DNA of 64,000 nucleotides. Source: Verrucosispora sp. WMMD573 (lineage in GTDB: Bacteria > Actinomycetota > Actinomycetes > Mycobacteriales > Micromonosporaceae). The DNA lies in NCBI RefSeq assembly GCF_027497175.1, contig NZ_CP114901.1, positions 5,208,001 through 5,272,000 of the forward strand. The letters run 5' to 3'. The translations under genes were made by a program, and so were the position numbers. A model generated the notes under the pieces. That model did no database searches and was not told the origin of the DNA. It saw only the letters and a list, made by a program, of their open reading frames with translations. Below are positions 5,722 through 21,851 of this stretch, piece after piece; the stretch's first letter is position 1; every line of letters begins with the position of its first letter.

Positions 5722-7197
5722 ATGAGACGAGTTCTCACCTTCGCGGCAGCAGCGATCCTGCTGCCCGTCGGTGCCATCGCCGTCGCGGTAACCCCCGCCG
5801 CAGCGGCCCCGACGCCCACCCCCGACACCGCCACCGTGGCCGCCGCATCGTCGGAGATGCTCGCCGCGATGCAGCGTGACCTCGACCTGACCCCGACCGA
5901 GGCGCGCACCCGGATCGCCCGCGACGACAAGGGAACCAGGACGGACGCCAGTCTGCGCCGGTCCCTGGGTTCGTCGTACGCCGGTGGTTGGATGACCGCC
6001 GACGGCCTGGTCGTCGCCGTCACCGGCAAGGCCGCAGCCAACCGGGTAAAGGCCGCCGGCGCACGGGCGACGATCGTCGAGCGCAGCGGCGCCGAACTGG
6101 ATCGGATCAAGGCGTCCCTGGACCGCCACGCCGCCAAGGCGCCGGCCGGCGCGGTTCCCGGGTGGTATGTCGACGTCACGACCAACACCGTCGTGGTCCT
6201 CGCCAGCGGTGACACCGCTGCGGCCGCAAAGTTCGTCCGTACGAGCCGCGTCGACGCCACCGCGATCCGGGTGGTCAGCACCACCGAGGCTCCTCGGCTG
6301 CTCTACGACGTCCGTGGCGGCGACGCCTACTACATGGGCGGGCGCTGCTCGGTCGGGTTCTCGGTGACCGGCGGCTTCGTCACCGCCGGGCACTGTGGCC
6401 GTACCGGCACCGCCACCCAGGGCTACAACCAGGTGGCCCAGGGCACCTTCCGTGGGTCGTCGTTCCCGGGCAACGACTACGGCTGGGTTCAGACCAACTC
6501 GAACTGGACGCCGCAGCCGTGGGTCAACAACTACTCCGGCGGCAACGTGACGGTCGCCGGCTCCACCGAGGCCGCCGTCGGCGCGGCCGTCTGCCGCTCC
6601 GGCTCGACCACCGGCTGGCGGTGCGGCACCATCCAGGCCAAGAACCAGACCGTCAACTACGCCGAGGGTTCGGTCAGCGGGCTGACCCGCACCAACGCCT
6701 GCGCCGAGCCGGGCGACTCGGGCGGGTCGTGGCTGTCCGGCCAGCAGGCCCAGGGCGTGACCTCGGGCGGCTCCGGTAACTGCTCCTCCGGCGGGACCAC
6801 CTACTTCCAGCCAGTCAACGAGATTCTCTCGGCGTACGGCCTGACGCTGCGCACCAGTGGTGGCGGGACGCCGCCCCCGCCCACCGGGTGCAGTGGCTAC
6901 GAGGCGACCTACACCGGCAGCATCTCCTCCGGCCAGAGCCGGTACCAGCCCAACGGCAGCTACTACTACTCGTCCTCCTCGGGCACCCACCGCGGCTGCC
7001 TGGACGGGCCGACCGGCGTGGACTTCGACCTCTACCTGCAGAAGTGGAGCGGGTCGGCCTGGGTCGACGTGGCCGGCTCCTACAGCCCCGGGCCGGACGA
7101 GTCGCTGACCTACAACGGCACGGCGGGCTACTACCGCTTCGAGGTGCACGCGTACAGCGGCTCCGGCAGCTACTCGCTGGGCATCACCAACCCCTGA
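5722..7197 (+). CDS. Secreted S1-family (streptogrisin-type) serine protease
   Basis: A 491-residue pre-pro-protease. Residues 1-29 are a signal peptide. Residues about 30-195 form an alpha-lytic-type prodomain, needed for folding and then cleaved. The mature chymotrypsin-fold domain follows, with His224 (TAGHCGR), Asp252 (NDYGW) and Ser333 (GDSGGS) as the triad and Cys pairs near 209/225 and 291/301. A PPPP linker near 385 leads to a C-terminal beta-sandwich of the PPC type (about 390-491), which usually aids secretion or substrate contact. GGAGG lies 7 bases before the ATG. A long hairpin follows the gene. The 275 bases upstream hold no gene; TATAGA at 5502-5507 could be a -10 box. Confidence 0.9.
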
Positions 7198-8669
7198 CCC
7201 ATCGATGACCCGGTGGCGGGCTGCGGATCGACCGCACCCCGCCACCGGTGTTCGACAGCTCCCGCTGGCCGCTCGTCGCGGCCGGCGAGGTCGCGCAACA
7301 GGTCCGCGGCGCGGCCGACCCCGCCCGTCTTGCGACTCTGCTCACCCCAGTGGCAGCTGCGCTGCCGGAAGCCGTCCTCCGACAGCAGCCGACGCAGCTT
7401 GCCGGTGACCTCGTCCGGGTCCACCCGGGGTGGTTGGTCGAGGGCCAGCCCGACACCCGCGTCGACCGCCCGGGCGGCGATGTCGTAGCAGTCCAGCCAG
7501 AACGGGGTGATCAGCATCGGCTGCCCGAAATGGACGCCCTCGTGGAAGCCGTTCGCACCGCCGTGGCAGACGAAGGCCCGTACGCGCGGGTGAGCGAGCA
7601 CCGCCAGTTGCGACGGAATCCACTCCTCGACCCTGATGTTCGCCGCCAGCGGCCTGGTCAACGCACCCCGTTGCCGGAGCGGCAGTTTCCACAGCACCTG
7701 GTGTTCCGGACCGATCCGGCCGAATGCTTCGGCGAACGCGTCGAGCTGGGCAGCGGAGAGAGTGGCCAGGGTACCCAGGCAGGCGTACACCACGCTGGTC
7801 TGCTGGTCCAGCCAGTCGGTCAGTTCGTCGCTACCAGGCTCGGGCGGCGTGGGCTCCTCAGGCACCATGGCGCCCAACAGGCGCAGGTGGTCCGGCGCGG
7901 GAAAGGGGTACTCCAGCCCGAACACGGTGTAGCCGAAGACGGCGACCGCCGCGGCGGCGTACTCCGCGGGATCACCGGAGGCGTTGGCCATACCGTTGGC
8001 CCGGCGCCGCCAGGTCGGCCCGGTCAGCGCGCGCAGCAGCGCCATGTGCAGCCGTAGGCGGAACAGCACATTCGTCAACTTCTGTGCCCCGGTCAGCCGG
8101 CGCGGAAGCCCCGAGGTCGGCGTCGGGTAGTCCCACGGCAGACGGCTCAGATAGGCGGCGCTGATCGGATACGGCACGCTCAGCACGTAGGGCACTCCCG
8201 CAGCGGTCGCCGCGTCGAGTGCGCCGATGTTCATCACGTCGATGACCATCAGCCGGGGGCCGACCCGCTCGATGTGGTCGAGATTGCGCCGGTAGACCTG
8301 AGCGGTGGCGTCGGCCGTACGCACCGCCCGGGCGAGAGCCGCCAGGCCGGCGGTGGTACGCGGTCGTCCGGCCATCGCCGCGTACAGCTCGCCCTCGATC
8401 CGCACCGGCTGGTCGGCACCGGGCAGGTATCGCAGCGGGCTGCCGAGCGCGGCCGCCTCGACCCGGCGCCGGCCGTCGACGTCGACGCTGAACCACAGAT
8501 CCGGTTCGCCCCGGCGGGACATCTCGGCGGCGACGGTCAGCAACGGGTTGAGCTGTCCGGGATGGGACGGGCTGGCAAACAGGATCGGCCTGCGGGACAC
8601 GGCCCCGGCTGCTGACACCTCTGCTCCTGACACGTCGACACGGGTACGTGGCTGCGGGCTCGGCATCAT
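7170..8669 (-). CDS. GT1-family glycosyltransferase of the natural-product cluster
   Basis: A 499-residue GT-B fold enzyme like bacterial macrolide or lipid glycosyltransferases. The N-domain begins [20 protein letters not shown]; the donor-binding C-domain has [11 protein letters not shown] and [19 protein letters not shown], the family sugar-nucleotide signature. It probably glycosylates the NRPS product, as BraA does in brabantamide biosynthesis; that role is inferred from context. Its ATG overlaps the P450 stop as ATGA, so it is translated second. The C-terminal 25 or so residues (from about GAVEHRWRG) are read from the hairpin that follows the convergent protease gene, and its stop lies 28 bases inside the protease. 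The last segment is therefore unlikely to be conserved. Confidence 0.8.
7210..7248 (+). terminator. Long hairpin after the S1 protease
   Basis: An 11-bp perfect stem (CCGGTGGCGGG / CCCGCCACCGG) is extended inward by GCGG/CCGC around a 5-base loop. It starts 13 bases after the protease stop and lies inside the 3' end of the convergent glycosyltransferase. Confidence 0.7.
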
Positions 8670-21307: not shown

Positions 21308-21851
21308 GTCACCGTCCTCGCCCTCAGTCCGAACCGTGACGACCGACATCGAGAGGTGGCCAGACGTGGATACCGATCAGCAGAGCCGGGCACGATCGCA
21401 GGCGTTGTTCGCCCGCAACCTCGAATACATCACCGAAGGACGGATCCGGGAGTGGGTCGAACTGTTCGACCCGGACGGGGTGCTGGAGTTTCCGTACCCG
21501 CCACCGGGCGTCCGATCCCGGTTCGTCGGGCACCACCAGCTGTACGAGCACATGAAGGACTTCCCGAAGCAGTTCGATGTCCGCTTCTCCGAGCTCACCT
21601 TCCACGAGACGACCGATCCCGAACTGGTCATCGCCGAGTTCGTGGGTCACGGCAGGGGTGTGATCACCAAACGACCGTTCCACCAGGTCTACATCTCCGT
21701 GGTCCGCTTTCGGGACGGCAGGATCGTCCACTTCCGGGACTTCTGGAACCCGCTGGTGACGATCCGCACCGCGGCTACGGTCGGTCACCTGTGGCGCGGC
21801 CTCGTCGACCTGGCGCGGAAGCGGCGACCGGACTCATCCGGTCGCCGCTGA
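21300..21851 (+). CDS. NTF2/SnoaL-like cluster protein
   Basis: A 183-residue single-domain protein with a cone-shaped NTF2-like fold, residues about 30-165. Hallmarks are ARNLEYITEGRIREWVELFD, EFPYPPPGVRSRFVGH and a final strand SVVRFRDGRIVHFRDFWNP. Members act as cyclases, epoxide hydrolases, dehydratases or isomerases, and some are only binding proteins. Being last in the NRPS operon it may assist a cyclisation or dehydration step; this is inference. The ATG at 21300 overlaps the SDR stop by eight bases but has no clear ribosome site. GTG at 21366, behind GAGAGG, is a good alternative start that keeps the domain whole. A terminator follows. Confidence 0.75.
   Translation: MAESPSSPSVRTVTTDIERWPDVDTDQQSRARSQALFARNLEYITEGRIREWVELFDPDGVLEFPYPPPGVRSRFVGHHQLYEHMKDFPKQFDVRFSELTFHETTDPELVIAEFVGHGRGVITKRPFHQVYISVVRFRDGRIVHFRDFWNPLVTIRTAATVGHLWRGLVDLARKRRPDSSGRR

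Follow-up and report, generated by a model that had tools for sequence, protein, structure and literature searches.

What does the divergent gene cluster at positions 7170–21851 of this DNA from Verrucosispora sp. WMMD573 (contig NZ_CP114901.1) make, and which of the known pathways stands nearest to it? The window, i.e., the whole stretch of 64,000 nucleotides that was analysed, spans positions 5,208,001–5,272,000 of a 6.5-Mb genome assembled as one contig, in which the cluster lies at 5.22 Mb. Its seven genes lie in two divergent arms. The minus arm consists of a cytochrome P450 and a glycosyltransferase (GT) gene with a 4-base overlap between them; the plus arm runs in the order nonribosomal peptide synthetase (NRPS), flavin monooxygenase (MO), PapA-like acyltransferase, short-chain dehydrogenase (SDR) and NTF2/SnoaL-like protein, with successive overlaps of 4–8 bases. 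Domains were called with Pfam on the open reading frames of the cluster, and further matches were obtained through NCBIfam, PDB and tblastn. These calls place the seven genes where a first-pass annotation of the sequence had put them, including an NRPS with the domain order C-A-T-C-A-T-TE (C, condensation; A, adenylation; T, carrier; TE, thioesterase), an MO directly 3' of it and a GT in the divergent arm. Taken together, the cluster probably (at about 77%) belongs, as a Ser-Pro pathway, to the bacterial pyrrolizidine/bicyclic-carbamate family, with the azetidomonamide/metaze branch as its nearest kin, and would follow the pathway proposed below. The first-pass annotation had compared it with brabantamide, pyrrolizixenamide and legonmycin, a set that left out the nearest relatives, which are of the azetidomonamide/metaze type. 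Of the extra genes that it took to be novel, the P450 (with the GT) is indeed clade-specific, whereas the acyltransferase, SDR and NTF2-like genes, to judge by their sequences, are already known from the azetidomonamide/metaze branch. What is new here is a clade of 11 loci with a divergent P450-GT pair and without AZE synthase or a neighbouring clpP.

The synthetase and its flavin monooxygenase

Domain order, catalytic motifs, adenylation codes, the MO triad, clade membership, co-occurrence and gene fusions are all read from sequence. Loci are numbered with L and genomes with G. The NRPS (10454–17782, plus strand, 2442 aa) gives Pfam matches for condensation, AMP-binding and carrier domains, two of each, and for a thioesterase, and its catalytic motifs are intact in C1, C2, both carrier serines and the TE. 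The acyl-loading C1 domain (10469–11749) has HHLVVDG at 10859 and is followed by A1 (11822–13417), T1 (13418–13630, GGDSILA), C2 (13721–14998, HHVLLDG at 14129), the Pro-like A2 (15071–16588), T2 (16643–16834; PF00550, residues 2064–2127) and the thioesterase/cyclase (16904–17674; PF00975, residues 2151–2407; GWSFGG). The A1 code was read as DVWHFSLVD, which we take to be the EntF Ser code, in line with the earlier assignment; the pocket positions were set by motif anchors. The Ser motifs of A1 were found in 35 of the 35 family NRPSs read.

The A2 code, DVQAISQVV, had been called closest to Pro, and it does lie near DVQFVSQVMK, which stands for Pro in telomycin beside the usual DVQYVAHVVK (PMC9113097). 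FDxxxQE is present in all 34 readable A2 domains of the family (that of L067 was unread), residue 322 is Gln in 31 and His in three of them, and the commonest form is DVQF(V/I)SQ(V/L)(V/A). At residue 278, 21 of the 34 have Phe; four carry Ala (the window together with L020, L021 and L023), L022 has Val, and the remaining eight show Tyr, His, Ile or Leu. The exchange at this position in the window's subclade is what one would expect if its A2 took a substituted or larger imino acid such as methylproline, hydroxyproline or pipecolate, and LgaD is predicted to use Pro or 5-methyl-Pro (PMC7820566). The other eight of the nine pocket positions, however, are within the family range and near the Pro code DVQFVSQV, and no gene that would supply a modified imino acid is evident in the cluster, which makes a larger substrate quite unlikely. 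Judging from the code, the substrate is most likely Pro, bound in a slightly larger pocket. A different A2 is seen in three Streptomyces loci (L061–L063; Streptomyces sp. SM11, CB02366 and S. californicus), with His322 and with Ala at 330 and 331, hinting at the use of another imino acid there.

Since LgnD-C2 dehydrates Thr (PMC8748450), the C2 domain of the window is, by analogy, expected to turn Ser into dehydroalanine (Dha). A fusion of NRPS and MO, suggested by a 2846-aa open frame in G006, was rejected, as the two lie in different frames.

The MO (17779–18993, plus strand, FAD_binding_3) is the enzyme on which the assignment turns. LgnC needs H200, Y219 and W221, residues that are not found in other Baeyer-Villiger monooxygenases (BVMOs) (PMC11457151), and YWWxTKN and GDAAH are marks of the family (PMC7820566). 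The window enzyme has H-x18-Y-x-W (H210, Y229 and W231), spaced as in LgnC, together with YWWGTLN, in which Leu stands for Lys, and GDAAH. Were it an ordinary class A aromatic or urate hydroxylase, the product would be a linear or diketopiperazine-like dipeptide. Database matches lean that way: the urate hydroxylase HpxO comes first in NCBIfam, and the best PDB match is 3rp6, a 'flavoprotein monooxygenase'. The HpxO score, however, is 229.6 bits against a cut-off of 500, and the 25 NCBIfam matches listed, out of 75, all fall short of their cut-offs. The triad, the phylogenetic placement and the linkage to NRPS genes also speak against a hydroxylase, which leaves this explanation hardly credible.

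This linkage was counted in a scan of genomes with names, of which the best 80 loci were used. All 15 triad-bearing MOs adjoin an NRPS matched over most of its length, and none of the 65 triad-negative enzymes has such a neighbour; the largest NRPS signal among the latter, at L122, consists of 970 scattered residues, the best piece being 27% identical. In a separate set of loci compared for the motif, only L005–L012, eight weaker matches, lack it. An MO tree of 51 rows (39 triad-bearing, with the triad of L144 confirmed, and 12 triad-negative) unites the window MO and the other 38 triad-bearing enzymes in one clade (100/99), apart from the triad-negative ones. The first-pass annotation had asked whether the MO would group with aromatic hydroxylases; it clusters with the NRPS-linked, triad-bearing enzymes. 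A Baeyer-Villiger type of the LgnC/BraC/PxaB kind is therefore supported for the window MO, and with it the core that had been proposed, a Ser-Pro NRPS with such a monooxygenase.

Such enzymes are sparsely distributed. Matches at E 1e-60 or better occur in 10 of 160 genomes of the genus (own included), and matches were found in 18 of 354 genomes of the family. A class-wide sample of 394 genomes gave 10 that match at 1e-50; the matches of four, the window's own genome among them, fall below 1e-100, and the next match overall is at 3.8e-59. Of 390 genomes sampled across the order of a Pseudomonadales genome, one passes 1e-55. The same genes, largely in the same order, recur in other genomes at MO identities down to 49%, so that the arrangement is not due to chance. 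At L066 (11214–12350, Nocardia transvalensis), a second FAD_binding_3 monooxygenase lies directly 3' of the LgnC-type one.

Kinship with the azetidomonamide and metaze clusters

The azetidomonamide (azabicyclene, aze) operon of Pseudomonas aeruginosa reads clpP2-NRPS-MO-PA3329-SDR-P450-PA3332-fabH2-ACP (PMC9040856, PMC5767178), where PA3332 is azeG (PMC9040856). It shares with the window the NRPS, the FAD monooxygenase, the SDR and an AzeG-type NTF2 protein; the window's NTF2/SnoaL-like protein (21300–21851, plus strand, SnoaL_2) matches PDB 1z1s, which is PA3332, at E 3.9e-35. A closer likeness is found in Saccharothrix carnea (L125), where a PucR-type regulator, NRPS, MO, PapA, SDR, P450 and SnoaL genes occur together with those for FabH, an acyl-CoA dehydrogenase, an AZE-synthase-like protein and ClpP (called with Pfam, with tblastn for NRPS, MO, PapA, SDR and SnoaL). 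The AZE-synthase-like protein matches 29st (E 3.9e-154), 8ryd (E 5.6e-92), presumably AzeJ, and 8ryg (E 2.3e-14). The last of these is VioH (PMC11794875). The metaze cluster has an aze-like order with an additional regulator at its border, a clpP that has moved elsewhere and a gene for an acyl-CoA dehydrogenase, and is highly similar to a Saccharothrix cluster (PMC13386464); by this comparison, the make-up of L125 appears much as described for metaze. This metaze-like cluster also carries, as the window does, a PapA-type acyltransferase between MO and SDR, in the same order.

The differences lie in what surrounds these shared genes. Unlike the aze and metaze clusters, the window gives no match to an AZE synthase, to FabH or to an acyl-CoA dehydrogenase, and clpP is missing from the neighbourhood of the cluster; its P450 is a different one and divergently placed, and a GT is added. 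A search with the AzeJ-like protein of L125 at E 1e-5, which within this genome covered the 64-kb window only, matched nothing there, nor in the other 35 cluster loci examined. The class I methyltransferase at 4799–5446 was considered as an AZE synthase and rejected, as 8ryd, 8ryg and 29st are not among its matches.

Among the other known systems, pyrrolizixenamide (PxaAB), legonmycin (LgnA-D) and legoncarbamate/bohemamine (Lga) likewise pair an NRPS with a BVMO that has the triad and the YWWxTxN and GDAAH motifs. They differ in that their available descriptions give either two to four core genes or additional genes for methylation and branched acyl groups, and mention no PapA, NTF2 or GT gene. 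No paper tying Micromonospora to these pathways was found in the literature searched, outside which most subscription papers lie; in four papers where the genus and a pathway name co-occur (PMC6328655, PMC9474520, PMC11448100, PMC5069421), the mentions have nothing to do with each other.

The acyltransferase, SDR and NTF2-like genes were counted over 39 cluster loci, with cut-offs of 100 bits for PapA, 150 for SDR, 90 for SnoaL and 300 for GT. As each locus covers only a limited length, a gene counted as absent is one absent from that stretch (L047 and L048, which have no PapA, are about 4 kb each). PapA was found in 29, SDR in 25, SnoaL in 17 and GT in 11 of the 39, and PapA, SDR and SnoaL stand together in 16. 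MO and PapA form a single open reading frame in six of the 29 loci with both (L038, L049, L060, L069, L070 and L077), and L144 has an SDR-like domain after the TE in one protein, where the YxxxQ region is not alignable. These fusions suggest that PapA, and perhaps also the SDR, act right at the core steps.

The free-standing PapA/C-like acyltransferase (18990–20420, plus strand; PapA_C/Condensation, PF16911 E 1.9e-13) has PHCVADG, and HxxxDG is kept in 26 of 29 loci. Its full length matches PDB 8s6l at E 1.4e-113 with 48% identity. The record of 8s6l is titled phthiocerol/phthiodiolone dimycocerosyl transferase; the nearest protein to it is the L125 acyltransferase, at 68% identity, and no paper naming the structure was found in the literature searched. 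The SDR (20417–21307, plus strand; PF00106 E 1.8e-40), which probably starts with the GTG at 20417, has YAAAQ in place of YxxxK. Gln takes the place of the catalytic Lys in 25 of the 25 readable cluster SDRs (26 rows, one of them gapped), the Saccharothrix enzyme included; alignment to 17-beta-HSD1 (1a27) gives the same exchange. The other SDR-like proteins of the window's genome have YxxxK in 21 of 21 cases. Because the loss of the catalytic residue is invariant, it suggests a changed role for the SDR, perhaps a non-redox one. The available texts on the aze pathway assign no role that we could find to the PapA, Lys-less SDR or NTF2-like steps; no literature search was aimed at the SDR.

It might also be argued that the genes for acyltransferase, SDR and NTF2-like protein have lost their function or belong to another pathway, since the SDR lacks its catalytic Lys and the PapA His is lost in three of 29 loci. 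Retention of the SDR in 25 and of PapA in 29 of the 39 loci, a Gln that shows no drift, HxxxDG in 26 of 29 PapA proteins and the six MO fusions argue against decay, and this view is very improbable.

Two unusual loci were noted here. L144 (3794–13305), from the order of a Pseudomonadales metagenome-assembled genome, has its NRPS split into C-A-T-C and A-T-TE-SDR beside a triad-bearing MO, and an acyl-CoA dehydrogenase lies near this compact cluster. The fused MO-PapA cluster L038 (17875–20433, Streptomyces sp. YIM 121038) is located on a 968-kb linear plasmid (pSSP121038) amid transposases and an intron maturase, a setting suggesting transfer.

The P450-glycosyltransferase pair and a possible self-protection

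The GT (7170–8669, minus strand) is of the GT-B fold (UDPGT/MGT-like, PF00201 E 1.4e-23), and the P450 (8666–9973, minus strand; PF00067 E 2.3e-28) has the heme Cys motif FSSGAHYCLG. The P450 probably starts with the ATG at 9973 and not with the TTG at 10081, to which the frame stays open. The divergent pair was found in 11 loci (the window, L020–L026 and L039–L041), with both genes present in all 11. Among the 39 cluster loci, a GT above 300 bits occurs in these 11 only, and never without that P450. The GT-bearing loci form a single clade in the MO tree (100/99); L027, their sister (99/98), lacks both genes, and next outside come the loci with clpP (86/91), the exact order being unsure. In the P450 tree, the enzymes of the GT clade group together (100/100), those of the four clpP-bearing loci form another clade (100/98), and a 96/96 branch unites the former with five paralogues to the exclusion of the clpP-type P450s. 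The clpP-type P450 was never seen together with a GT in the loci read. As the GT loci are one clade and their P450 is distinct from the clpP type, the pair resembles a cassette acquired in a single event.

From the gene content, the window P450 could have been expected to be an orthologue of AzeF. This was rejected, as it belongs to a P450 clade of its own and another P450 of the same genome scores higher against the L125 enzyme (230 versus 203 bits). A further candidate role was that of a heme-less glycosyltransferase activator, the kind represented by DesVIII and EryCII. This was rejected too: TIGR04515 is indeed the top match, but its 198 bits stay below the cut-off of 343, and the protein has a heme Cys motif.

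A GT also brings brabantamide to mind. Brabantamide (BraABC) is made from a Ser-Pro NRPS and a homologous BVMO and is rhamnosylated on a beta-hydroxy acyl chain (PMC11177316). By the same scheme, the window GT would decorate a beta-hydroxyl of the acyl chain, the MO would give a lipocyclocarbamate and the P450 would act on the chain. The brabantamide description, as far as available, mentions no PapA, SDR, NTF2 or P450, and the window GT is assigned to UDPGT only. The PapA, SDR and NTF2-like genes instead tie the window to the aze/metaze branch, and the nesting of the 11-locus GT clade among GT-less relatives suggests that the GT was gained separately. A brabantamide-type pathway is therefore unlikely.

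The relation between the GT and clpP bears on how the producer might protect itself. No clpP is found near the window cluster, the three ClpP of the genome being encoded at 25–27 kb and 2.13 Mb; exactly three is the norm of the genus (56 of 61 genomes). Within about 10 kb of the cluster, clpP was found in four of 20 cluster genomes (G328, G332, G044 and G767), the same four that have an in-operon P450. None of the 11 GT-bearing genomes has one near the cluster; where one lies on the same contig (G006, G089 and G132), the closest is some 70 kb away, and none of the five remaining genomes without a GT has one either. The draft contigs of four genomes of the GT clade (G127, G148, G031 and G098) end near the cluster, so that a clpP beyond their ends is possible; this limit is absent for G000 and G006 (one contig each) and for G132, G327, G329 and G330 (few contigs). 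The pattern permits, and does not show, that glycosylation took the place of a resistant ClpP. Other solutions to protection exist, as the five loci that lack both GT and clpP indicate. Beside the clpP-bearing aze-type cluster of G328 (L145), two further genes were seen: one for a 647-aa radical-SAM protein (6100–8043), also found in L044 and L045, and one beyond clpP (10382–11812) for a protein with all three EF-Tu domains, which could be another self-resistance gene.

Proposed pathway, product and borders

In the proposed pathway, C1 would acylate T1-bound Ser with a chain supplied from outside the cluster as acyl-CoA or acyl-ACP. C2 would then dehydrate the acylated Ser to Dha and couple it to T2-bound Pro, and the TE would release a [5+6] indolizidinone. 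Into this the LgnC-type MO may insert oxygen to give a [5+7] oxazepine carbamate able to relax to a pyrrolizidine. The MO product is reported to proceed to cyclocarbamates with BraC, or non-enzymatically to pyrrolizidines (PMC11177316). The acyltransferase, SDR and NTF2-like protein would form one conserved unit acting on or right after the BVMO step, the P450 would add a hydroxyl, and the GT would cap this hydroxyl with a sugar from a common NDP-sugar. Confidence in the core of this pathway is high, and a glycosylated product is likely.

The first-pass annotation had predicted a new glycosylated and acylated member of the family. Its first half holds up as a likely prediction from the presence of the GT; an extra O-acyl group is doubtful, because metaze A and B, from an aze-like cluster, are described without one. 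Metaze A is an N-acylated azetidopyrroline and metaze B its bicyclocarbamate analogue; a further acyl group goes unmentioned in the available text (PMC13386464), though culture conditions may matter.

Several points count against the assignment to a Ser-Pro, aze/metaze-like pathway. The chemical steps, the sugar and its position, and the acyl chain are what we infer from the genes, and the cluster holds no gene for acyl-chain or sugar biosynthesis. Membership of the MO in the LgnC kind comes from residues, motifs and context, and Ala at residue 278 of the window A2 departs from the commonest family form. The PapA His lost in three of 29 loci (L049, L069 and L077) is lost in fused MO-PapA proteins of one outlying clade. 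An ordinary redox role of the window SDR is doubtful, as it has no catalytic Lys. The P450, by its placement in the tree, is not of the AzeF type, so that the site of hydroxylation cannot be borrowed from aze.

The family's bicyclic carbamates clipibicyclene and metaze B are unstable inhibitors of ClpP; the carbamate is the direct product, and intact-protein masses indicate that it probably modifies ClpP covalently (PMC13386464). On this background, a more speculative view, which we consider improbable as a whole, joins the two peculiarities of the window: the P450-GT pair would give self-protection independent of ClpP, and the Lys-less SDR would belong to a non-redox unit. A ClpP-reactive carbamate would be hydroxylated and stored or exported as a sugar-capped pro-form, so that a resistant clpP copy would be dispensable, and the YxxxQ SDR, with the BVMO-linked PapA and the NTF2-like protein, would steer or hold the unstable carbamate. 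If true, a sugar-capped branch could yield a more tractable bicyclic carbamate. How producers protect themselves could be tested directly by setting the branches with clpP against those with a GT, and the PapA/Lys-less SDR/NTF2 unit, partly fused to core enzymes, marks steps to which the available literature assigns no role.

The borders at 7170 and 21851 are supported by the neighbouring genes. The alpha-lytic-type protease (5722–7197) adjoins the cluster only in L020–L022, and the GH62 catalytic part (21940–23337) lies beside it only in L020 and L022; since these neighbours occur in few relatives only, 7170–21851 is a good boundary. The upstream methyltransferase is outside the conserved block as well, and stands beside the cluster only in L020. 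There is no regulator gene within the cluster, and no Rfam match to a leader RNA was obtained within 7000–22500. The divergent intergenic region between the arms (9974–10453), which would hold the promoters, has a mean column identity of 69% in an alignment of seven sequences, with blocks identical across these seven relatives, e.g., GATCAAC at about 10223.

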